This document shows positions 15,681-60,725 of a stretch of DNA of 64,000 nucleotides, in pieces. Below the pieces are notes generated by a model that made no database searches, was not told the DNA's origin, and saw only the letters and a program-made list of their open reading frames with translations. The stretch is taken from NCBI GenBank assembly GCA_030168595.1, contig CP115556.1, forward strand, positions 1,364,001 through 1,428,000. The letters run 5' to 3'. Position 1 is the stretch's first letter; each line of letters starts with the position of its first letter. Source of the stretch: Methanomassiliicoccales archaeon LGM-DZ1. Lineage in GTDB: Archaea; Thermoplasmatota; Thermoplasmata; Methanomassiliicoccales; Methanomethylophilaceae. A program made the translations under genes and the position numbers.

Positions 15681-16238
15681 ATGACAGTTGCAGGGATAAT
15701 CGAAAGCCACATCGCCATACCCGATGGGGTCACCGTCTCTCTGGACGGGAACACCTTGACGGCCAAAGGGCCCAAAGGTGAACTGAGCAGAAACTTCTCG
15801 CACCCCCGCGTGAATGTCGTCGTTGCGGACGGGAAAGTCACAGTCAGCTGTGAATACCCGAGGATCAAGGACAAGGCCATGGTCGGAACCTACGCCGCCC
15901 ACATCAAGAACATGATCAAGGGCGTCACCGTCGGGTTCACCTACCACCTCAAGGTCGTGTTCTCCCACTTCCCTATGAAAGTGACCGTCAACGACAAAGA
16001 GAAGAGGGTCGAGGTCAACAACTACATGGGAGGGCACGCCCCCCGTTACGCCGTCATCGTCGGCGACTCCAAGGTGAAGATCAGCGGACAGGACATCACT
16101 GTCACCGGCATCTCCATCGAGGACGTCGGCCAGACCGCGGCCAACATGGAGAAGTCCACCATGAGGGGAGGCTTCGACAAGAGGGTCTTCGAGGACGGTA
16201 TCTACATTACCGGCAAGTCGCACAAGGTGAAAGAATGA
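15681..16238 (+). CDS. rpl6: 50S ribosomal protein uL6
   Basis: 185-residue uL6 near the sarcin-ricin loop. IPDGVTVSLDGNTLTAKGPK at the start and the duplicated domain with YMGGHAPRYAVIVGDSKVKI and GQDITVTGISIEDVGQTAAN identify it. Confidence 0.95.
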   Translation: MTVAGIIESHIAIPDGVTVSLDGNTLTAKGPKGELSRNFSHPRVNVVVADGKVTVSCEYPRIKDKAMVGTYAAHIKNMIKGVTVGFTYHLKVVFSHFPMKVTVNDKEKRVEVNNYMGGHAPRYAVIVGDSKVKISGQDITVTGISIEDVGQTAANMEKSTMRGGFDKRVFEDGIYITGKSHKVKE

Positions 16239-23321: not shown

Positions 23322-23666
23322 ATGGGAATCTTCTCGAAAAGCGAGACGGTGCTTCAGCTGGACCGCAAGGTCGTCGGAGAGGTCAATCTCCAGAGCGATA
23401 CCGGTACAGGCTATGACAACGTCCTGCATATCCCGTTCGGGGTCAAGAAGGGCCGCAAGGTCCGCGTGTCGGTCGAATCCGACAGGCCCGTCGACGTAGC
23501 GCTGGCATATGGGGATTTCTCCTCAGCCGGCCATAAAGAGGGGATGACCGAGGGCACTCTGGGGCCGTTCGACACCAAGGACTACACCGATATGGCGCTC
23601 TTCCTGGGTGTGTACCCCGGCGACAGGGCCACGGTCTCCGTCAGAGTATGGACGGATAAGAAATGA
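23322..23666 (+). CDS. Conserved hypothetical beta-rich protein
   Basis: 114 residues, no signal peptide or membrane helix. Short alternating strands (KVVGEVNLQSDTGTG, RKVRVSVESDRPVDVALAYG, RATVSVRVWTDKK) suggest a small beta-sandwich. I do not recognise the family. CTTTTTACA about 27 bases upstream of ATG 23322 supports a leaderless start. Its stop overlaps the start of the TAG-containing membrane protein gene (ATGA), so the two proteins probably act together, perhaps this one as a soluble partner. Confidence 0.6.
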   Translation: MGIFSKSETVLQLDRKVVGEVNLQSDTGTGYDNVLHIPFGVKKGRKVRVSVESDRPVDVALAYGDFSSAGHKEGMTEGTLGPFDTKDYTDMALFLGVYPGDRATVSVRVWTDKK

Positions 23667-24796
23667 CAAGGATCGTGAAGGGTAGGAAGGTAAAATACTG
23701 GGAGGATTCGCTCCCCAGCAGCGTCACCGAGCTCAGCTCGTTCGACCGCACTGTGCTGATCCTGTGGGCGCTGAGCCTCCTGGCCAGCCTCGCGGCCCTG
23801 TCGTATTTCATATATGCCAGCACATTCGACAAGTACGTCTCCGTCTAGGTCCTGGCGGCCCCGTTCATCCTAGTCGGCGTCTATTACATGCTGGACAACT
23901 TCCTGCGCGGAAACAAGGCGTACCTGCTCTTCCTGGTGATGGTCGGCATCATCGTGGGAGTGCTGATAGCCATAGATGTCCACAGCTACGGTTCCGTAGC
24001 GCTGTTCATCGCTGAGATAGCCGTGGGGTCCGTGGGAGTGGCGGTCGTCGTGGCCTCCATCCAGAAGCTGATCTTCTTCAGGACCCTGCATTCGGTCAGG
24101 TACATGAACATCAAGGCCAAGCGCAGCCTGGGCGACAGGGTGGTATCGTTCATGTTCAACGTCCCGCCGGACATCGACACCAGGAGGATCGAGCTGACCT
24201 TCAGCAAGAGCTTCAAGTTCCCCTGGAAGGACATGTTCACCACCGCCATGCTCTCCATGGCCGTCGGGCTCTTCGTCTGGATCTATTTCTCCATGAACCC
24301 GGTGGCGTCCGACGACAGCATCACCGATGCATCGCTCTCGGTCTTCACCGTCATCCTCTACGTCCCGATCATCACCATGACCTTCAGCATCTACAAGACC
24401 GTGGATGCCAGGGTCGAGAGTGATTTCGAGCCGTACAGGCTGTACAACGGCGTCGTGGCCACCATCCAGAGGATGGCCCTCCCGGTCCTCGCCGTCCTGC
24501 TGTACGTTTACTACAAGATCGACAATACCGACGATTACAGCTCCGTCCTGCAGTTCATCATAATCTCCGCGGTCGTCATCTTCTTCGTGGTCATGCTGAC
24601 CTCGGCGATCTACTATCGCACCCTTTCCGACGGAGTGGTCGCGGACATCGAGCAGAAGAACAAGATCTTCATCCCTGTCTCCCTCTTCGCCAACCTGAAG
24701 AACGAGAGCCGCAAGGACAAGAAAACCGTCCCCGGGACGCCCGAGAGGGACGAGTCGGACATCAGCAAGCTCGATATCTCTTACAGGTCCGACTGA
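23663..24796 (+). CDS. Polytopic membrane protein with in-frame TAG (candidate pyrrolysine)
   Basis: Read through one TAG at 23846-23848 this is a 377-residue protein with codon 62 as the candidate pyrrolysine; without readthrough it is a 61-residue fragment and an orphan frame. Codons before and after the TAG are in the same frame, and no start codon precedes the downstream part until 23888, inside a membrane helix. Helices are near 29-52, 63-78, 86-104, 109-130, then after a soluble section (about 140-185) near 195-215, 225-245, 270-285 and 295-315, ending in a charged tail. Codon 62 sits in the short loop between the first two helices. Family not recognised. Alternatives are a nonsense mutation or sequence error. 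Confidence 0.7.
23846..23848 (+). other. In-frame TAG, candidate pyrrolysine codon
   Basis: The context is GTC TCC GTC TAG GTC CTG GCG, with uninterrupted hydrophobic coding sequence on the 3' side. Pyrrolysine decoding needs PylS and tRNA-Pyl elsewhere in the genome; none is in this window. Confidence 0.6.
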
Positions 24797-26520: not shown

Positions 26521-28035
26521 ATGGTCGCGAAAGAAGTAATCGATGGTCTTAGCTACAACGAGAAGAAACTGCTCCTGGCACTTGCGAAGGCTGGAGGCTC
26601 CGCAGCGCCGGAGGACCTTGTCCGGGGCGGAGCGTTCTCCCTCGGCGTGGAGGCCATGGGAGCGGCCTCCAGGCTGTCCTTCAAGGGGCTTGCCTCCATC
26701 AAGGAGAGCAGCGAGAAGTTCTACGAGCTCACCGATCCGGAGGCGTCCGCCAAGGACCTTCCCGAGAGGCATGCGCTCGAGGCAATCTCGGCGGCCGGCG
26801 GGAGGATGACCCTGGCCGACCTGGCCTCCGCCATACCCGGGGAGGACAAGATCGCCGTCGGCTGGCTCATGAAGAAGAAGCTGGCCGTCATGGACAGGTC
26901 AGGGGAGAACTCCCTGCAGCTCACCGACGCAGGCCGCGCCGCCCTCGGCAGCTCGATGCCCGACGAGCAGCTCATAGCCAGGATGCTCAAAGCGCCCGTC
27001 CCCGAGGCGGAGGCCGACCCGAAGGCCGTGAAGGACCTCAAGGGCCGCAAGGGCATGATCCGCGAGACTGAGGACGTCCGGAGGCAGATATCGCTTACCG
27101 ATGAGGGCAAGGAGGCCGCCGCCTCCGGCATCGAGCTCAGGGAGGAAGTGGCCGACGTCACCGACACGCTGATCCAGAGCGGGAAATGGAAGGACGTCGA
27201 TTACCGCTCCTACGATGTCCAGGCCCTCGCTCCGACGGTGTACGCCGCGAAGAAGAACCCCCTGACGCGCCTCGGCAACGAGGTTCGCCGGCTGTTCTGC
27301 GACATGGGGTTCACCGAGATGTCCTCGGAGTACGTCCAGCCCGCGTTCTGGAACATGGACGCCCTGTTCATCCCGCAGGACCATCCGGCCCGCGATATGC
27401 AGGACACTTTCTTCCTGGAGCATCCTGCGTCCATACCCCTGACCGACAGGGCGCTGGTGGAGAAGATCAAGGCCATCCATGAGAACGGCGGCGGCACCGG
27501 GTCCACGGGCTGGGGCGGGACCTGGTCCGAGGAGAAGGCGGCCCAGGCGCTGCTCAGGACCCACAGCACCGTGAGCTCCATAAGGTACATCGCGGCCCAT
27601 CCCGACGCGCCCCAGAAAGCGTTCTCCATCTCGCGCATCTTCAGGAAGGAGTCCATCGACGCCACCCACCTGCCCGAGTTCTCGCAGATCGAGGGCATCG
27701 TGATCGACGAGAACGCCAGCCTGGACATGCTGATCTCCCTCATCCGCGAGTTCTATTCCAGGATGGGGTTCGATCAGATCCACGTGAGGCCCAGCTACTT
27801 CCCGTACACCGAGCCCTCCCTGGAGCTCGAGGTGTTCTTCCACGGGAAATGGCTCGAACTGGGAGGCGCCGGCATCTTCAGGCCGGAGGTCGTCGCCCCG
27901 TTCGGCGTGAAATGCCCCGTCATGGCCTGGGGATTCGGCTTCGAGAGGCTGGCCATGCTCAAATGGGACATCAAGGACATCAGGGACCTGTACATCTCCG
28001 ATATCGATTCCCTGAGGAAGAGCACGGTCTTCTGA
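26521..28035 (+). CDS. pheS: Phenylalanyl-tRNA synthetase alpha subunit
   Basis: 504-residue archaeal-type catalytic alpha subunit. The first 200 residues are repeated winged-helix-like units (LSYNEKKLLLALAKAGGSAA, ITLTDAG-like segments) that bind tRNA. The class II core follows: motif 2 region FSISRIFRKESIDATHLPEF, FHQIEG-type SQIEGIVIDE, and motif 3 AWGFGFERLAMLKWDIKDIR. The beta subunit gene is not in the window. Confidence 0.96.
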   Translation: MVAKEVIDGLSYNEKKLLLALAKAGGSAAPEDLVRGGAFSLGVEAMGAASRLSFKGLASIKESSEKFYELTDPEASAKDLPERHALEAISAAGGRMTLADLASAIPGEDKIAVGWLMKKKLAVMDRSGENSLQLTDAGRAALGSSMPDEQLIARMLKAPVPEAEADPKAVKDLKGRKGMIRETEDVRRQISLTDEGKEAAASGIELREEVADVTDTLIQSGKWKDVDYRSYDVQALAPTVYAAKKNPLTRLGNEVRRLFCDMGFTEMSSEYVQPAFWNMDALFIPQDHPARDMQDTFFLEHPASIPLTDRALVEKIKAIHENGGGTGSTGWGGTWSEEKAAQALLRTHSTVSSIRYIAAHPDAPQKAFSISRIFRKESIDATHLPEFSQIEGIVIDENASLDMLISLIREFYSRMGFDQIHVRPSYFPYTEPSLELEVFFHGKWLELGGAGIFRPEVVAPFGVKCPVMAWGFGFERLAMLKWDIKDIRDLYISDIDSLRKSTVF

Positions 28036-28109: not shown

Positions 28110-29342
28110 TCAGAGCGCCTGGAATCCCGGGTCCGTTCCTTCCGACACAGCATCGATCATGTGCCTGTACGCCGGACGGCGCCCTTCGGGAGCAGACTGC
28201 CAGGCCTTCTCAAGGTTATCCATCGTGGCCGCGGTGTCCTTCTCGGCGAACGCTATGCGGGCGCGGGTGCAGAATATCCTGTCGATCCACGCTCCGTCCA
28301 GGGTCCTCAGCGTCTCGTTGGCGGCGATGTCGCAGAGCTCCCTGGCCTTCTCCAGGTTGCCGATGCTGGCATGCGCCTCGGCGGCAATCTCGGCAGGCAG
28401 GGGCCCGCCGACCTCCTCCATGGCGCGCTCGGCTATCGTTGCTGCCTCCTCGTAGCGCTTCTGCAGCACCAGGATCTGTGACCTGACCTCGAGAGCATGC
28501 CTGGACCCTATCCCGGCCAGTTTGCCGAGGCATTCCTCGGCATCCTTCACGGAACGGAGCCCGATCGATGTCTCGGCCATGAGCCAGAACAGGTGCTCGC
28601 TGTACTCCGGGACCGCCTTGACGGCCCTGAGGTCGCAGTAGAGCTCCTCGGAGGGGCAGAACAGCGCGTTCTAATCCATGGTTTCGGCGAGGATGTTGGC
28701 CTCGATGTTCCTGCCCGCCTTGTTCAGGTGGTACAGTCTCTCGGCCCTGTTCCCGCTTTTGAGCCAGTAGTCGGCGGCCCAGCTGTGCCAGGAGCGGAGG
28801 GAGAAGGGATCGGCCAGCCGGATGAACGCTTCTGCAGTCCTCTCCGGTATGCAGATGTACCCGCGGAAATCGGTCGGGATCGTCCCGGAGGTCATCCCCG
28901 GAAGGTCCTTCTTCAGGATCGGTTTGCGGAAGACGCAGGCCCTGCCGACCGCATCGCGGTCCGCCTGGCTCATGCACTTCCACTTCCCTTCCGGATTGCA
29001 GCGGCTGATGTCCAGGAGCATATCGGTGTCGATGCCCTTCTTCTCCAGGTTGGCCTTGAGCTTCCTCCCCTCCCCCGCGCCTATCGGCGTGAGGCAGTAG
29101 ACGAAGCGCTTGGCCGGGGTTCCGTTCAGATGCGCCTGCCACCTTTCCACGAATCCGTACTCCTCAAGCTTCTTCAGATCGATAGATACATGCGCGCGGG
29201 AGATCCCGGCGGCGGATGCTATCCCGTCCTGAGTGAGCTCGCGGGGGACGTCGAAGTTCTGTTTCGGGTACACGCTCGGAAATCTGAGCATGTGAAGCAG
29301 GATGCGTTCTTTCACGGTCAGGCAATAAGTTTGTTCCATCAT
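28110..29342 (-). CDS. Winged-helix/helical-repeat regulator with in-frame TAG (candidate pyrrolysine)
   Basis: Read through a TAG at 28671-28673 the gene encodes about 410 residues. The N-terminal 75 form a winged helix (LTVKERILLHMLRFP, LTQDGIASAAGISRAHVSID, LKKLEEYGFVERW); a central part runs to the TAG at codon 224 in TMD-TAG-NALFCPSEEL; the C-terminal 185 are TPR-like helix pairs (LVLQKRYEEAATIAERAMEE, SIGNLEKARELCDIAANETL). The helical repeats continue smoothly in the same frame on both sides, and the part after the TAG has no start codon until the Met at 28580, 30 codons later. A TATA element (CCTTTAAATCC) near 29375 suggests starts at 29342/29339. Family not recognised; a DNA-binding sensor or regulator is inference. 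Confidence 0.7.
28671..28673 (-). other. In-frame TAG, candidate pyrrolysine codon
   Basis: Minus-strand context is ATG GAT TAG AAC GCG CTG TTC. The next in-frame stop is TGA at 28110-28112, 187 codons further on. Confidence 0.6.
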
Positions 29343-29535
29343 ATCCAGGATCGAAGATTTTCGCATCCGGATTTAAAGGCATACTATTGCAATCAGAGAT
29401 ACGGATTACAGACAGCCAGGCGTGTCTTTACCTGCATGTAATGCCTGGGGCAGGGAAAAATTAACAACTATTAATCAGCAGTTGGTTCCATCTAGTAAAA
29501 AACATATTCATCTTGGTCTTTTGTGCAAATCTGTA

Positions 29536-31093: not shown

Positions 31094-31131
31094 TTTTATA
31101 CGCAAGCGCGATGGGTATAATAATTATTGTT
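31094..31131. promoter_or_regulatory. Compact divergent promoter of pyrH and the aRF1 gene
   Basis: Two AT-rich elements lie within 40 bases. CCTTTTATACG (about 31092-31102) is 25-30 bases upstream of the aRF1 TTG start on the + strand. GTATAATAATTATTG (about 31115-31129) is placed for pyrH on the - strand. Each gene's TATA lies within or beside the other's start region, so the promoters overlap. Confidence 0.45.
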
Positions 31132-32380
31132 GGAGGCTTTGGAAACGGCAATAGACAATTCTGTCAGCAAGGCCAGGTATGATTTCAAGAAAGCCATGGA
31201 CGAGATCCGCGGCTATCGAGGAAAAGGCACCGAGCTCATCTCGGTGTACATCCCGTTCGGAAAGCTCGTATCGGACGTCATGGCCTACCTCAGGAACGAG
31301 GAATCGGCGGCGTCGAACATCAAGTCGAAGACCACGATGAAGAACGTGACGGGCGCCATCGAGTCGGTCGCTGCCCGTCTGAAGACATTCGACAAGATCC
31401 CGGAGAACGGGATCGTCATCTTCTGCGGCGAGGTCCCCCGCGCGGGCGACCAGACCAAGATGGTCCAGTACGTCATCAACCCGCCCGAGGCCATCACCGC
31501 CTTCCTGTACAGGTGCGACGCGCAGTTCTTCACCGAGCCCCTCGACGGCATGCTCGTCGACAAGAGGTACTACGGGCTCATAGTCATAGACAGGAAGGAA
31601 GCTACCATCGGCATGCTGGCCGGGACCAGGATCAAGGTGCTGAAGCACTACGACTCCCTCGTCCCCTCGAAGCACCACCAGGGAGGTCAGTCCTCCGTGC
31701 GTTTCGAGAGGCTCATCGAGATCGCCGCCCACGAGTTCTTCAAGAAGGTCGCCGACGGATGCACCACCTGCTTCCTGGACAGCATCCTGGACATGGAGGG
31801 CATCCTCGTCGGAGGGCCCGGCATGACGAAGGACTTCTTCATCAACAACGAGTACCTCCACCATGAGCTCCTCAAGAAGGTCGTCAGGCCGTTCTTCGAC
31901 ACCGGCTATACCGACGAGTCGGGGCTGAAGGAGCTCGTCGAGGCCGCCCAGGGCGTCATCGTGGACATGCAGATCACGTCCGAGAGGGACATGATGCAGC
32001 GCCTGTTCAAGGAGATCAGGAAGGAGGACGGCGGGCTCTCCGCCTACGGCGAGGACATGGTCCGCAAGTGCGCCGAGATGGGGGCGGTCGATACGTTCCT
32101 CATCTCCAGCAAACTGAAGAAATACCGCATAAAGGCCGTATGCCCGAACGGCCACGAGACGATGATGACCGTGGATGACCCAGACGCTCCGGTCAAGTGC
32201 CCGGAGTGCGGGTTCGGCGCCAAGGTCGCGGAGAGCAAGGACCTCATCGATGACTTCTTCGAGATGTCCGAGCTCTACAATTCGAGCATCCAGCTCATCT
32301 CCGGCGATTCCGAGGAGGGGGAGATGCTCTACAGGGCGTTCGGCGGCATCGCAGCGCTGCTGCGTTACAAGGTCGGATGA
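31127..32380 (+). CDS. Peptide chain release factor aRF1
   Basis: 417-residue archaeal class I release factor. Stop-codon reading motifs are present: NIKS in AASNIKSKTTMKNV and YxCxxxF in YRCDAQFF. The catalytic GGQ is in SKHHQGGQSSVRFERL, and a C-terminal zinc-type knuckle reads CPNGHETMM..CPECGFGAK. The N-terminus lacks an ATG: TTG codons at 31127, 31130 and 31139 are the only sensible starts before ARYDFKKAMDEIRGYRGKGT. If UAG is read as pyrrolysine, this factor competes at UAG. argS follows by 6 bases. Confidence 0.93.
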   Translation: MLEALETAIDNSVSKARYDFKKAMDEIRGYRGKGTELISVYIPFGKLVSDVMAYLRNEESAASNIKSKTTMKNVTGAIESVAARLKTFDKIPENGIVIFCGEVPRAGDQTKMVQYVINPPEAITAFLYRCDAQFFTEPLDGMLVDKRYYGLIVIDRKEATIGMLAGTRIKVLKHYDSLVPSKHHQGGQSSVRFERLIEIAAHEFFKKVADGCTTCFLDSILDMEGILVGGPGMTKDFFINNEYLHHELLKKVVRPFFDTGYTDESGLKELVEAAQGVIVDMQITSERDMMQRLFKEIRKEDGGLSAYGEDMVRKCAEMGAVDTFLISSKLKKYRIKAVCPNGHETMMTVDDPDAPVKCPECGFGAKVAESKDLIDDFFEMSELYNSSIQLISGDSEEGEMLYRAFGGIAALLRYKVG

Positions 32381-54976: not shown

Positions 54977-55086
54977 GCCGGGATGGCTCAGCCTGGTAGA
55001 GCGTCGGACTCATAGGGTTTGGTTTAATTACTGACCTCACCAGGGAAATCCGAAGGCCGAGGGTTCGAACCCCTCTCCCGGCACCA
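54977..55086 (+). tRNA. Elongator tRNA-Met (CAT) with intron
   Basis: Acceptor GCCGGGA/TCCCGGC, D-arm GGCTCAGCCTGGTAGAGC, anticodon stem TCGGA/TCCGA with loop CTCATA-A, T-arm GTTCGAACC, discriminator A and encoded CCA. A 33-base intron (55015-55047) interrupts between positions 37 and 38, the canonical archaeal site cut by the tRNA splicing endonuclease. TTATAAA at about 54944-54951 is the promoter. The A/T-richer block starts directly downstream. Confidence 0.93.
55015..55047 (+). other. tRNA-Met intron
   Basis: 33 bases between anticodon position 37 and 38, from GGGTTTGG to CAGGGAA. Exon joining restores the loop CTCATAA. Confidence 0.85.
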
Positions 55087-55166
55087 ACCTTTATCATCTC
55101 AGGACTGCGATGCTGTCATCGGCCTGCGGTTTCTTGTTGCAACTATGAATCAGCAGGTCGCTTTTT

Positions 55167-55198
55167 GAATGGGGCGGTCTTTAAATGGGGCGGCTTTT
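55167..55198 (+). repeat. Tandem 16-bp repeat at the CobN-like promoter
   Basis: GAATGGGGCGGTCTTT (55167-55182) is followed at once by AAATGGGGCGGCTTTT (55183-55198), 13 of 16 bases identical. The TCTTTAAAT across the junction is the best TATA element for the CobN-like gene. Confidence 0.6.
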
Positions 55199-55220
55199 TC
55201 AGTCACAATGATTATGTTCG

Positions 55221-55237
55221 TTGGAACTATCATCCAA
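55221..55237. promoter_or_regulatory. Candidate operator TTGGA-N7-TCCAA at the CobN-like gene
   Basis: TTGGAACTATCATCCAA ends five bases before the ATG at 55243, close to the predicted transcript start. The same 17-base layout recurs at 61841-61857. Placement downstream of TATA fits a repressor. Confidence 0.55.
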
Positions 55238-55242
55238 TCATA

Positions 55243-58200
55243 ATGGGCGAACTTCTCATCACCGTGGTTTCTGTGTCCATGCCGGCAGTTCTGTCCACGT
55301 GCGAGTATGCCTCTTTGCATAAGATTCGGGGAGTGAGGTTCTCGGTCTCATACGTTGGTCAGGGACATGGCAGTATCGAAGGGATTCTCGGAGACATAGA
55401 GTCGGCCGATGCTCTTGTCATAGATCTCATGGGCCTTTCCAGCGCAGATTGCCGCATGATTGTCTCTGCAGCTAAAAAATGCAAAGGCATTCGCGTAACA
55501 GCGGGAGGGATGGCTCCCAATTTGGCCCGGATCGGAGGGTATGATGCATCGCGTTTCAGGATGAGCGCTGCCGATGAAGAGAACCTCCATCGTATCAGCC
55601 AATGTTGGAAACGGGCGGAAACCAGGGATATGGAATACATCTACAGCCTCATTCTCGGGCATTACCTAGGGATTCGCAGCGTGGAAGAGAAGGAGTACCC
55701 GGAGGTCAGAGAGGGAGTTTACCTGAAAGATCCGGACACCGGCGAAGAATGCCCGGATGTCGGCTCATACCTGTCTGCCCACAGTTTCGGGAAGAAGGAG
55801 GGAACGGTGATGATGGCGTACAGCGGCAGCAGCTATCCCTATGACAGCAGAAAAGTCGCCGAACGCATGTTCGCGGCATTAGGCGGTTTCGCCGACGTCA
55901 TCCCTGTTGCAATGAACAGTTACAGCGTGGACAGTGCAGACGAGCTGAGGAGGATCGCCGGAAAACCCGATGTCATCGTCAATCTGCTGCCGTTCCGCTT
56001 CCTCGCGGGCCCCATGGGAGGGGACAGTGGCTCTGCCGTAGATCTCCTCAGGGAGTTCGGGGCTCCGATCCTCTCTCCGTTCATCATGACAGGCACTTCT
56101 CGCGGTGATTGGATGCGTTCAAAAACGGGCGTCGATGCCATGGAGTTCATGCTGGACATATTCCTTCCCGAACTCGACGGAGCCGTCTGCACCATTCCTG
56201 TAGGCACATCCGAACCCATGCCGTCTTCAGAAGGTTTTCCGCCGGGCGCATCCGAGATAGATCCGCTTGATGATAGGATTTCAAGGATCGCCGGAAAGGT
56301 CCGCGGTCTTCTGAGGCTTCGCCACAAATCCGAAACGGAGAAAAAAGTGGCGATCATCGCATACAATTATCCTCCGGGAGAGGGAGAACTCTTCGGCGGT
56401 TCCTTCATCGACGGAGCAGGGTCTCTGTCAAGCATCTTATCGATGCTAGCGACGGCAGGTTATGATACCGTTCCTATGAGCGCAGGAGAGATAATCAGCA
56501 GGTTTCTTTCCGACGGGATACTCAACGGCGGAGATTGGCTGGCTCCGACCGGGGCCGTCATCAGGAGCCTGCCGAGGGGAAACCATCCCTGCGAGATCTC
56601 GGCAAGATGGGGACCGGAACCGGGAAAGATCATGGTCTCGGACGGGAAATACCTGATCCCAGGGATCGTCGACGGCAATGTGTTCATCGGCATCCAGCCC
56701 GCCAGAGTGCCGGAGAAAGGGGACATAAGCGGATCCTACCACGATGATTCGCTTCTGCCGCACCACCAATATCTGGCATTTTACGAATGGCTGCAGAGGG
56801 ATTTCGGGGCCGACGCGATCGTGCATCTCGGAACCCATGGAACTCTGGAGTTCCTGCCCGGGAAGGAGCAGGCCATGTCGGGGCAGTGCTATCCGGATAT
56901 GCTGATGGGGGACCTGCCGCACTTCTACATCTATTATTCCGGGAACCCCTCGGAGGCGATGATCGCGAAAAGGCGTTCCCATGCGGCGATAGTGAGCTAC
57001 ATGCCTCCGCCGTTTGTCCGCAGCGGGACATACGGCGCCCTTGCAGAATTGGAATCCGAGATAGCGGAACTGCGTGAGAGTTCAAAGGCCGATTCCGGCC
57101 GCGCCGAGATGCTGAAGGACAGCATAGTCAGGAAAGCTGCAGAAATGCGCTTGCCGACAGACATCGAAGAGCTAGAGGATGAACTTGTCAATATTCGCAA
57201 CTCTCTCATCCCGAACGGACTCCATGTGTTCGGGAAGGGGATGTCGGCGGAAGATGCTGCCTGCTGTGCGGCGGAATCTCTCCGCTTCCCCCATGACGGG
57301 CTTCCTTCTCCGGAATCACTGAACGGAATCTCCGACGGGGAACTGGCAGAAGCTGTTTCTGAATATGCTGCGGACGGCAGAGTGCCTTCTTCAGCAGCAG
57401 ATGTCGAAGGAATCGCTGTTTTTCTCGAATATGCAAAGAAAGTCATGTCGGCGGCCGAACATCCCGAAGAGGAAGAGGGTCTGCTGACAGCACTGAACGG
57501 AGGTTACATCGAGGCCGCCCAAGGGGGCGATTCTCTGAAAGATCCGGAAGTCTTGCCATCGGGGCGCAACATCGTGCAGTTCAATCCTTTTCATATTCCC
57601 ACGCAGGCAGCTTTCAAGAGAGGTGCGGATGCCGCCCGCGATCTCATAGACCAGTACCGCCGGGACAGCGGCAGATGGCCCCGCCGTGTGGCCCTGGTTC
57701 TCTGGGGACTGGAGACTTCCAGGACGCAGGGCATGACAATAGGGCAGATCTGCGGGTATCTGGGTCTCCGCATGGTCTCTCAATCGGGAGACTTCGTTTC
57801 CCGCTTCGAGCCCATTCCGATTGAGGAGCTGGGGCGCCCCCGCATCGATGTCACAGTATCCATGTGCGGATTCTTCCGCGATATGTTCCCCAATCTCGTC
57901 ACGGGGCTGGCAAAGATCTTTGAGACGGTCGGGAAGCTGGATGAGCCGGAAGAGCAGAACTATATCAAGGCCGGCGACCGCAGAAACCTTGAATATCTCT
58001 CCGTCGCTGGCTATTCAGGAAAAGAGGCCGAGGATCTGGCCTTCTGCCGCCTGTTCGGTCCTGAAAGGGGAGAGTACGGAACCTCGGTCACTGCTGCTGT
58101 GAAAAGTTCCTCTTGGAAAGAGGAATCGGAGCTGGGCGGCATGTTCATTGACAGTCTCCGTTTTGCATATACTGCAGAACGCCGGGGAGAAGACATCGCC

Positions 58201-58767
58201 GGCCTCCTGGAACATAACTACAGTGCCGTCGATGTTGTATCTCAGGTAAGGGACAGCAAAGACCGCGAGATCATTGATCTCGATCACTATTATGAGTTCC
58301 TCGGCGGGCTTTCCAAGGCAGTAGAAGTGAGTTCCGGCGCCAAACCGGAGGTCTACGTAGTGGACGACAGCGGTCCGAGAACGAAGACCGAGCCCGCCGC
58401 CCGTTCTTTCGAAAGAGGTCTCAGGACCCGCCTTCTCAATCCCAAGTGGATAGACGGGCTGCTGAAAACCGAATATCACGGTGCCCAGAAGATCAACGAA
58501 CGTTTCGAGAACACGCTCGGACTTGCCGCTACAGTAGGCTGCGTCAATACGGGGGCTTTCAGCGACCTTCTGTCACGCTATGTCCTAGACAAGAATACCA
58601 GAGACTGTGTGAAGGCCAACAACCCTTGGGCTTATATGTCCATGATCAAAAGGCTCTCGGAAGCTTACGAACGCGGATACTGGAAAGCTACAGACGAAGA
58701 GCTCAATGCCTTGAAGAAGGAGTTCGAGGATGTCGAAGGGGAGTTGGAAGATGTTTCTGACCGCTGA
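55243..58767 (+). CDS. CobN-like chelatase-family large subunit
   Basis: 1174 residues of the CobN/BchH/ChlH family. The hallmark segment VHLGTHGTLEFLPGKEQAMS (about residue 526) is followed by CYPDMLMGDLPHFYIYYSGN and AKRRSHAAIVSYMPPPFVR. C-terminal VALVLWGLETSRTQGMTIGQ, FFRDMFPNLV and AYMSMIKRLSEAYERGYWKA also match. True cobaltochelatase needs CobS/CobT or ChlI/ChlD-type ATPases, and none is here. Instead the gene faces an iron-type ABC importer and shares an operator with it. That context resembles HmuS, the CobN-like protein of Bacteroidota haem-uptake operons that removes iron from haem. Cobalamin synthesis is the alternative. ATG 55243 is chosen over the upstream open frame. The stop abuts that of the importer ATPase. 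Confidence 0.88.
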   Translation: MGELLITVVSVSMPAVLSTCEYASLHKIRGVRFSVSYVGQGHGSIEGILGDIESADALVIDLMGLSSADCRMIVSAAKKCKGIRVTAGGMAPNLARIGGYDASRFRMSAADEENLHRISQCWKRAETRDMEYIYSLILGHYLGIRSVEEKEYPEVREGVYLKDPDTGEECPDVGSYLSAHSFGKKEGTVMMAYSGSSYPYDSRKVAERMFAALGGFADVIPVAMNSYSVDSADELRRIAGKPDVIVNLLPFRFLAGPMGGDSGSAVDLLREFGAPILSPFIMTGTSRGDWMRSKTGVDAMEFMLDIFLPELDGAVCTIPVGTSEPMPSSEGFPPGASEIDPLDDRISRIAGKVRGLLRLRHKSETEKKVAIIAYNYPPGEGELFGGSFIDGAGSLSSILSMLATAGYDTVPMSAGEIISRFLSDGILNGGDWLAPTGAVIRSLPRGNHPCEISARWGPEPGKIMVSDGKYLIPGIVDGNVFIGIQPARVPEKGDISGSYHDDSLLPHHQYLAFYEWLQRDFGADAIVHLGTHGTLEFLPGKEQAMSGQCYPDMLMGDLPHFYIYYSGNPSEAMIAKRRSHAAIVSYMPPPFVRSGTYGALAELESEIAELRESSKADSGRAEMLKDSIVRKAAEMRLPTDIEELEDELVNIRNSLIPNGLHVFGKGMSAEDAACCAAESLRFPHDGLPSPESLNGISDGELAEAVSEYAADGRVPSSAADVEGIAVFLEYAKKVMSAAEHPEEEEGLLTALNGGYIEAAQGGDSLKDPEVLPSGRNIVQFNPFHIPTQAAFKRGADAARDLIDQYRRDSGRWPRRVALVLWGLETSRTQGMTIGQICGYLGLRMVSQSGDFVSRFEPIPIEELGRPRIDVTVSMCGFFRDMFPNLVTGLAKIFETVGKLDEPEEQNYIKAGDRRNLEYLSVAGYSGKEAEDLAFCRLFGPERGEYGTSVTAAVKSSSWKEESELGGMFIDSLRFAYTAERRGEDIAGLLEHNYSAVDVVSQVRDSKDREIIDLDHYYEFLGGLSKAVEVSSGAKPEVYVVDDSGPRTKTEPAARSFERGLRTRLLNPKWIDGLLKTEYHGAQKINERFENTLGLAATVGCVNTGAFSDLLSRYVLDKNTRDCVKANNPWAYMSMIKRLSEAYERGYWKATDEELNALKKEFEDVEGELEDVSDR

Positions 58768-59559
58768 TCAGGCACGATCTGCGACACGGTCGTTCCCGTC
58801 ATCATAAGCACGGACGAACAGCCCATGGCGGTCTTCCATTATCTCTGCAGACACTCCGTAAACATCCATGATCATCTTCGGAGTTATGACATCCTCAGGT
58901 TTCCCGATATCGTAGACGCTTCCGTTGTGGAGCACCATCACCTTATCAGAATATCTGATGGCCAGATTGAGGTCGTGCAGAGCGACCACGAGGCACGATT
59001 CCCGCTCCCTGGTAAGTTTCTTCATGATCCTCATCGTATCCTGCTGATTGCGCAGGTCGAAAGAACTGGTAGGTTCATCGAAAACATAGAACGACGGACG
59101 CTGTGCCAGAGCGCGTGCGATGAAGGCGCGTTGACGCTGGCCACCTGAGAGATTCTCGATATTGATGCCTGAATATGCGTTGACGTTCATGTCGATCATG
59201 GCCTGGGCGGCTATCTCGAGATCCTCATGCGTGTATGACCATTCGACATAAGGGCGCCTTCCGATGAGGACGAGATCGTAGACCGTGCTGTGCCCTGCTG
59301 TGCCTATCGTCTGTGGGACATAAGCAACAAGTTTCGCCATCTCTTTCGGGTCCATGGCCAGAAGGTCCCTGCCGTCAACCGTTACCGTGCCTGCTTTGGG
59401 AGGGATGACTCCGCAGAGGGTCTTGATGAGCGTGGATTTTCCGCATCCGTTGGGGCCCAGAATCGTAAGCAGCTCTCCGCTTTCTGCTGTGAATCCTACG
59501 TCCTTGATTACGCAATGGGGTCCGTATCCTTGGGCAATGCCTTCTGCTTCCAGTTTCAC
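58768..59559 (-). CDS. Iron/cobalamin-type ABC transporter ATPase
   Basis: 263 residues, FecE/BtuD/HmuV type. Walker A is LGPNGCGKSTL, the Q-loop is AYVPQTIGTAG, the signature LSGGQRQRAFIARALAQ, Walker B FYVFDEPTSSFDL and the switch histidine VALHDLNLAIRYSDKV. The start is GTG at 59559, overlapping the permease stop (GTGA). The last gene of the fecB-fecCD-fecE order; its TGA (minus strand) directly abuts the TGA of the CobN-like gene. Confidence 0.95.
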   Translation of the reverse strand: MKLEAEGIAQGYGPHCVIKDVGFTAESGELLTILGPNGCGKSTLIKTLCGVIPPKAGTVTVDGRDLLAMDPKEMAKLVAYVPQTIGTAGHSTVYDLVLIGRRPYVEWSYTHEDLEIAAQAMIDMNVNAYSGINIENLSGGQRQRAFIARALAQRPSFYVFDEPTSSFDLRNQQDTMRIMKKLTRERESCLVVALHDLNLAIRYSDKVMVLHNGSVYDIGKPEDVITPKMIMDVYGVSAEIMEDRHGLFVRAYDDGNDRVADRA

Positions 59560-60725
59560 AGCCTATCTCCCCATCTTTTCCCGCTGATCATCCAGAGGAA
59601 GAAAATCCCGCCGATCACATACATGATTATCCCCACCGGTATCTGCTCAGGCCTGAGAATCACTCTGGAAATCACATCCGATACCATCAGAATGGACGAT
59701 CCCAGGAGGGCCGAGGCCGGGATCACATAGCGCGTGTCGTTCCCTATCACCATGCGGATCATATGGGGTGCCATGAGGCCGATGAATCCTATCACGCCTG
59801 TGAATGCGACGCAGGCGGCCGATACCAAAGTGCATACGATCAATCCGTTGCGGCGCAGCTTGTAAACATCAAGCCCTACGTTTCTGGCGATCTCATCGCC
59901 TGCCGAAAGGCTGTTTATGTCCAGCGAAATCTTCTCGAGATAGATCGTGCAAATGATGACAATCGGCGTAAGCACGATCACCGCGCCCCAGGTCGCGTTC
60001 CACATGCCGCCCATGAGCCAGTTGGTTATCTTGCGGAGCGCTTCATCATCGGAAACATACTGCGAAAGCGATATGCCGGCCGAGAAGAGATAGCTGATGA
60101 CCACTCCTGCCAGGATGAGCGTGGCACGGGAAGCATTCTTCGAAGCGATTTTGAGCACCAGCAATATGCTCACCAATCCGAACATGAACGCGAAGGCCAC
60201 CAGCAGTATGTTTTCCGCAGAGGTGCTGGCGAACCCGAGGTTCCATTCGTCGTGGAACCAGCTCCCGAAAAGCTCGGAGCCAAACACGATGGTCATAGCA
60301 GCACCGAACGATGCCGCTGTCGAGACGCCCAATGTGAAAGGGCTGACGAGCGGGTTTCTCAGCAGCCCCTGCATAACTGTCCCGGCAGCTGCCAGGCTGA
60401 ATCCTGTCAGCAGGCAGAGGAGCGTCCTCGGCAGCCGGGAATTCATCACTATGTCGTCGTACCAATCTTTCGACGGGAGGTCTACCCACGCAGGGAATAT
60501 GTGGTGGAACACGACGGCCAATGTATCGGAGAACGGGATGTTCACGGATCCGATGGCCAAGGAGCAGACGAAGGCTATCGCGGCCGTAACCGACATCAGC
60601 AGGATGAACTGCGTTTTGCGTTTCTTCGAGGCGCTGTAAGATCCCTCTATGCGGTCCTGCTCCCTTTCCGTCTCCTTTGCCTTGACGAGGCGGTCTTTTT
60701 CTGCGGCCTCAGCGTTTTCGTCCAT
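59556..60725 (-). CDS. FecCD-type ABC transporter permease
   Basis: 389 residues with about ten membrane helices of the BtuC/FecCD family. A charged cytosolic N-terminus of 40 residues (MDENAEAAEKDRLVKAKETE) is followed by SRLPRTLLCLLTGFSLAAAG, LLRNPLVSPFTLGVSTAASF, LINSLS-type DINSLSAGDEIARNVGLDVY (the coupling region to the ATPase), GFIGLMAPHMIRMVIGNDTR and the closing EQIPVGIIMYVIGG. ATG 60725 is 11 bases after the fecB stop. Confidence 0.95.
   Translation of the reverse strand: MDENAEAAEKDRLVKAKETEREQDRIEGSYSASKKRKTQFILLMSVTAAIAFVCSLAIGSVNIPFSDTLAVVFHHIFPAWVDLPSKDWYDDIVMNSRLPRTLLCLLTGFSLAAAGTVMQGLLRNPLVSPFTLGVSTAASFGAAMTIVFGSELFGSWFHDEWNLGFASTSAENILLVAFAFMFGLVSILLVLKIASKNASRATLILAGVVISYLFSAGISLSQYVSDDEALRKITNWLMGGMWNATWGAVIVLTPIVIICTIYLEKISLDINSLSAGDEIARNVGLDVYKLRRNGLIVCTLVSAACVAFTGVIGFIGLMAPHMIRMVIGNDTRYVIPASALLGSSILMVSDVISRVILRPEQIPVGIIMYVIGGIFFLWMISGKRWGDRL

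Follow-up and report, generated by a model that had tools for sequence, protein, structure and literature searches.

An in-frame TAG, most likely read as pyrrolysine, in a winged-helix/TPR regulator gene of a Methanomethylophilus species

The minus-strand gene at positions 28110–29342 of the analysed 64-kb stretch of DNA (the window) carries an in-frame TAG for which pyrrolysine is most likely the correct reading. Five observations jointly make this the best reading: the TAG interrupts a single gene, it is shared by a second strain, the part behind it is under selection, the genome possesses the pyrrolysine genes and TAG is rare as a stop codon.

Gene structure and predicted protein

Translation of the minus strand leads from ATG 29342 through 223 codons to TAG (28673–28671) and through a further 186 codons to TGA 28112–28110, in agreement with the in-frame codon counts given in the preliminary description. 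Both sides of the TAG score as coding, with log-odds of +56 before and +50 after it. A second in-frame ATG upstream, at 29366, adds 8 codons; the reading from this position with TAG as sense, termed P0001, comprises 418 residues with the TAG at residue 232 and provides the residue numbers used below. The TATA-like motif at 29377–29371 and the starts of the relatives favour ATG 29342 as the probable start. The relevant features are:

28110–29342, minus strand: whole gene with TAG read as sense, a winged-helix and TPR-solenoid regulator of ~410 aa ending with TGA 28112–28110
28671–28673, minus strand: in-frame TAG, codon 224 from ATG 29342 and codon 232 of P0001, most likely pyrrolysine
29076–29315, minus strand: winged-helix domain, P0001 residues ~18–97, with weak MarR/TrmB/HTH_Crp_2 matches below the curated cut-offs, conserved in orthologues
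28143–28808, minus strand: predicted TPR-like alpha-solenoid, P0001 residues 187–408, continuing through the TAG codon
29371–29377, minus strand: TATA-like TTTAAAT, 29–35 nt upstream of ATG 29342, judged by eye without a statistical test
26521–28035, plus strand: pheS (PheRS alpha subunit), named from sequence, convergent neighbour of the regulator gene
31127–32380, plus strand: release factor aRF1 with the standard motifs NIKS, YRCDAQF and GGQ, ~2 kb from the regulator gene

Pfam assigns to P0001, weakly, a MarR/TrmB/Crp-type winged helix (36–97) and a TPR_19 motif (300–348); a sequence relative in the PDB was not found. The structure model, derived from a two-sequence alignment and of low confidence over nearly half of its length, is poor before residue 190 and good after ~240, where most blocks reach a pLDDT of ~90, with values of 62–82 for the blocks around the TAG. 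It predicts paired helices from 187 to 408 and places residue 232 in a turn immediately following helix 220–229. According to this model, a product truncated at 232 would not correspond to a clean domain but would comprise the winged helix, the middle region and a short initial piece of the solenoid. The Foldseek matches are generic TPR superhelices. The combination of a DNA-binding or signalling module with a TPR superhelix recalls the HTH-TPR one-component and TPR STAND regulators (PlcR, 3u3w; STAND protein, 6mfv), but the resemblance exists at the fold level only (best E 0.0016) and the Pfam search matched no NTPase domain in P0001.

Orthologues and strain comparison

A protein search of the order revealed an orthologue in 58 of 61 Methanomassiliicoccales genomes. 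The matches of the relatives cross the TAG and cover query residues ~15–410 as one protein of ~410 residues, which implies that the TAG interrupts a single gene; among the best matches, only those of the window genome and the sister species show a stop across this region. Orthology is firm, as the convergent arrangement of the regulator gene and pheS recurs in each of the 13 congeneric genomes whose coordinates were compared. The orthologue comparison suggested in the preliminary description thus came out in favour of one continuous protein, the relatives not ending at the TAG codon, and its proposal of one winged-helix and helical-repeat protein read through TAG in a host with pyrrolysine machinery gains support from orthologues spanning the site. 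A chance open frame is ruled out by the homology on both sides of the TAG. The notion of two genes, the N-terminal part ending at the TAG and the C-terminal TPR part beginning at a later start, can draw on ATG 28580, the first behind the TAG to open a listed ORF (30 codons downstream; 156 aa). We nevertheless regard it as highly improbable, given the continuous single protein in relatives and the position of this ATG, which in the model would fall into the middle of the solenoid.

Residue 232 is unconstrained, since it varies among relatives (D, E, Q, Y, A, S, F, H, R, K, N or W in the alignment of 30 genomes), and none of the 29 other aligned genomes, those of PylS-bearing species included, has a TAG there. 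The sister species has the sense codon TCA at 232 and a TAG of its own 67 residues later, at a position that corresponds to residue 299 and is CTG in the window sequence. A short match to a winged-helix paralogue in a further genome (G012:C1:310541-310846) likewise contains an internal TAG of its own.

The identical TAG is present in the regulator gene of Ca. Methanomethylophilus sp. 1R26, a separate assembly (L035) which over the compared stretch equals G061, a genome listed as the same species. As this assembly differs elsewhere, with 20 differing sites and one indel relative to the window gene, a sequencing or assembly error at the TAG base is unlikely, and we consider this explanation practically negligible. 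The changes between the strains comprise 9 synonymous and 2 nonsynonymous ones before the TAG (p = 0.0003) and 7 synonymous and 2 nonsynonymous ones after it (p = 0.003), compared with a nonsynonymous fraction of ~0.72 expected without selection. Purifying selection therefore conserves the part downstream of the TAG within the species. The ratio of downstream to upstream identity to the congeners is 0.56 for the window copy and lies within the range of the genus (0.41–0.65), arguing against a quicker decay after the TAG. The 1R26 draft (L057 / L035) contains a 1-bp deletion at codon 395, near the gene end, which alters the last residues only and may reflect a draft-assembly error or mild decay. 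This deletion and the lack of a TAG at this codon in the genes of relatives would fit a true stop in a gene that is being lost in the species and yields only a protein of 223–231 residues. Such a scenario is improbable, however, in view of the within-species selection and the absence of extra divergence behind the TAG, as well as the strong coding signal, the pyrrolysine machinery and the near absence of TAG stops described below.

Decoding of UAG in the genome

The genome contains pylT, pylS, pylC and pylD together, and pylB ~1 Mb away in genome coordinates. ARAGORN reported no tRNA-Pyl; pylT was found instead by its anticodon-loop sequence CTCTAAA (CUA anticodon) at L037:8697-8768, immediately upstream of pylS on the same strand. 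The genes pylC and pylD follow pylS and were named by position and sequence, the match to PF21360 (PylC-like N-terminal domain) being below the cut-off and that of pylB above it. The same region (L037) harbours three methyltransferase-region ORFs, each with an in-frame TAG, and just upstream of pylT (L037:8200-8690) what appears to be the decayed remnant of a methyltransferase-like gene. The motifs of aRF1 are intact, such that termination should be able to compete at UAG and readthrough to rest on this competition, as reviewed for pyrrolysine archaea (PMC9499178). RNA folding behind the TAG, where a PYLIS-like stem-loop could be present but is not obligatory, gave a z-score of -1.42, with 18 of 200 shuffled sequences folding equally well.

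The use of TAG as a stop was assessed in the window (71 genes) and in 20 further stretches of 400 kb in total (350 genes), together 464 kb and 421 genes. In the window no gene ends with TAG and two contain it inside. The standard-code stops in the 400 kb are 306 TGA, 30 TAA and 8 TAG; of the latter, three lie in the methyltransferase region, two open into long coding extensions and at most three resemble TAG stops. In the entire sample, at most three apparent TAG stops stand against four non-methyltransferase genes with a TAG inside. The window also has few TAA stops, so that the lack of TAG stops alone is not specific there; in the 400-kb sample, however, TAA stops (30) are clearly more numerous than TAG stops (8, five of them in readthrough genes). 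The window segment ~55000–60700, of lower GC content and with hardly any gene calls by the codon model, is possibly a mobile element. Besides the regulator gene, the following non-methyltransferase genes of the sample contain an in-frame TAG:

23663–24796, plus strand: membrane-protein gene, TAG 23846–23848, codon 62
L050:15756-17066, plus strand: TiaS (tRNA-Ile2 agmatinylcytidine synthetase), TAG at 15930, residue 59
L044:1061-1864, plus strand: GalE (UDP-glucose 4-epimerase), TAG at 1286, residue 76 of the called frame

The first of them bears out the description of the regulator gene as the second pyrrolysine candidate of the window. Its TAG corresponds to CAG in 1R26 and the 13 further changes are all synonymous (13/0); it thus captures a sense-to-TAG difference inside one species. 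In TiaS, the TCKD domain match (1–148) spans the TAG, which is present in both strains and absent in six other congeners. In GalE, an above-cut-off match (2–264) crosses the TAG. Rough extrapolation from four genes per 464 kb suggests ~15 such genes in the 1.77-Mb genome, close to the 16 putative pyrrolysine-containing non-methyltransferase proteins of Ca. Methanomethylophilus alvus (Borrel et al. 2014, PMC4153887).

Interpretation and significance

Our preferred scenario, to which we attach high confidence, is that of an ordinary regulator which acquired a TAG by chance and is still produced as full protein by pyrrolysine readthrough, the near-neutral change being kept. An order-wide winged-helix/TPR regulator gene beside pheS, in a UAG-decoding Methanomethylophilus species, would have undergone a change from a sense codon to TAG at a variable and probably exposed turn before the two known strains split. 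UAG would then be read as pyrrolysine because PylRS charges tRNA-Pyl and almost no gene needs TAG as a stop, giving rise to the full protein of ~410 residues; the sense-to-TAG change would be close to neutral and might for this reason have been kept. We infer the actual insertion of pyrrolysine, its efficiency and its neutrality, as well as the targets of the regulator.

The preliminary description had envisaged a sensor of the pyrrolysine supply, in which scarcity of charged tRNA-Pyl leads to termination at UAG and thereby to a functional winged-helix fragment with different regulation. The presence of the TAG in both strains is compatible with such a device, and the competition between termination and readthrough (PMC9499178) makes some truncated product conceivable. 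Under this idea, however, one would expect the TAG to be conserved, the gene to be tied to the pyrrolysine system and a domain border to fall at the TAG; none of the three expectations is borne out. The TAG at codon 232 is confined to this species in the alignment; the gene occurs in 24 of 26 genomes without PylS and in 34 of 35 with PylS, and thus shows no co-distribution; and the TAG is predicted to lie inside the solenoid, not at the end of the winged helix. Moreover, unrelated genes, including the housekeeping genes for TiaS and GalE, contain TAGs too. We consider the sensor very unlikely, and just as far-fetched a variant in which a TAG arising by chance yielded two regulator forms whose ratio follows the pyrrolysine supply and was co-opted as a species-specific switch.

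Readthrough with pyrrolysine, the favoured interpretation, matches the situation in Ca. M. alvus, an archaeon of the same group with in-frame TAGs in ordinary genes whose relatives lack them, few TAG stops (1.6%; PMC4153887) and a pylTSCD cluster with a distant pylB (PMC3941956). This kind of protein was thus already described in 2014, and the regulator gene adds a member. None of the Ca. M. alvus genes in Table 7 of that study is named a winged-helix/TPR regulator, the 389-aa 'Sel-1 domain' entry being comparable by name only, and the two-strain selection test and the TAG at another codon in the sister species go beyond it. A 2009 study, as cited in PMC4153887, dealt with pyrrolysine in a non-methyltransferase protein and explained it as neutral; the gene concerned there is unrelated to the regulator gene, for which pyrrolysine is predicted from sequence.

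The regulator gene shares the proposed reading of UAG as pyrrolysine with the methylamine methyltransferases MtmB, MtbB and MttB, and TAG-containing genes of a methyltransferase region occur in the genome. Pyrrolysine in these enzymes is conserved and catalytic, whereas codon 232 of the regulator is unconstrained. Kivenson et al. reportedly described an archaeal code in which every TAG signifies pyrrolysine, which would predict the reading of the regulator-gene TAG proposed here.

The regulator gene provides a clear example, backed by selection, of the spread of pyrrolysine to ordinary proteins, and the variation of TAGs between sister species and even strains renders the idea of a neutral spread directly testable. 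Standard gene callers would split such TAG-containing proteins in two. TiaS, a tRNA-modifying enzyme, is held to be essential in archaea, and its TAG-bearing gene would make AUA decoding and viability dependent on the pyrrolysine supply.
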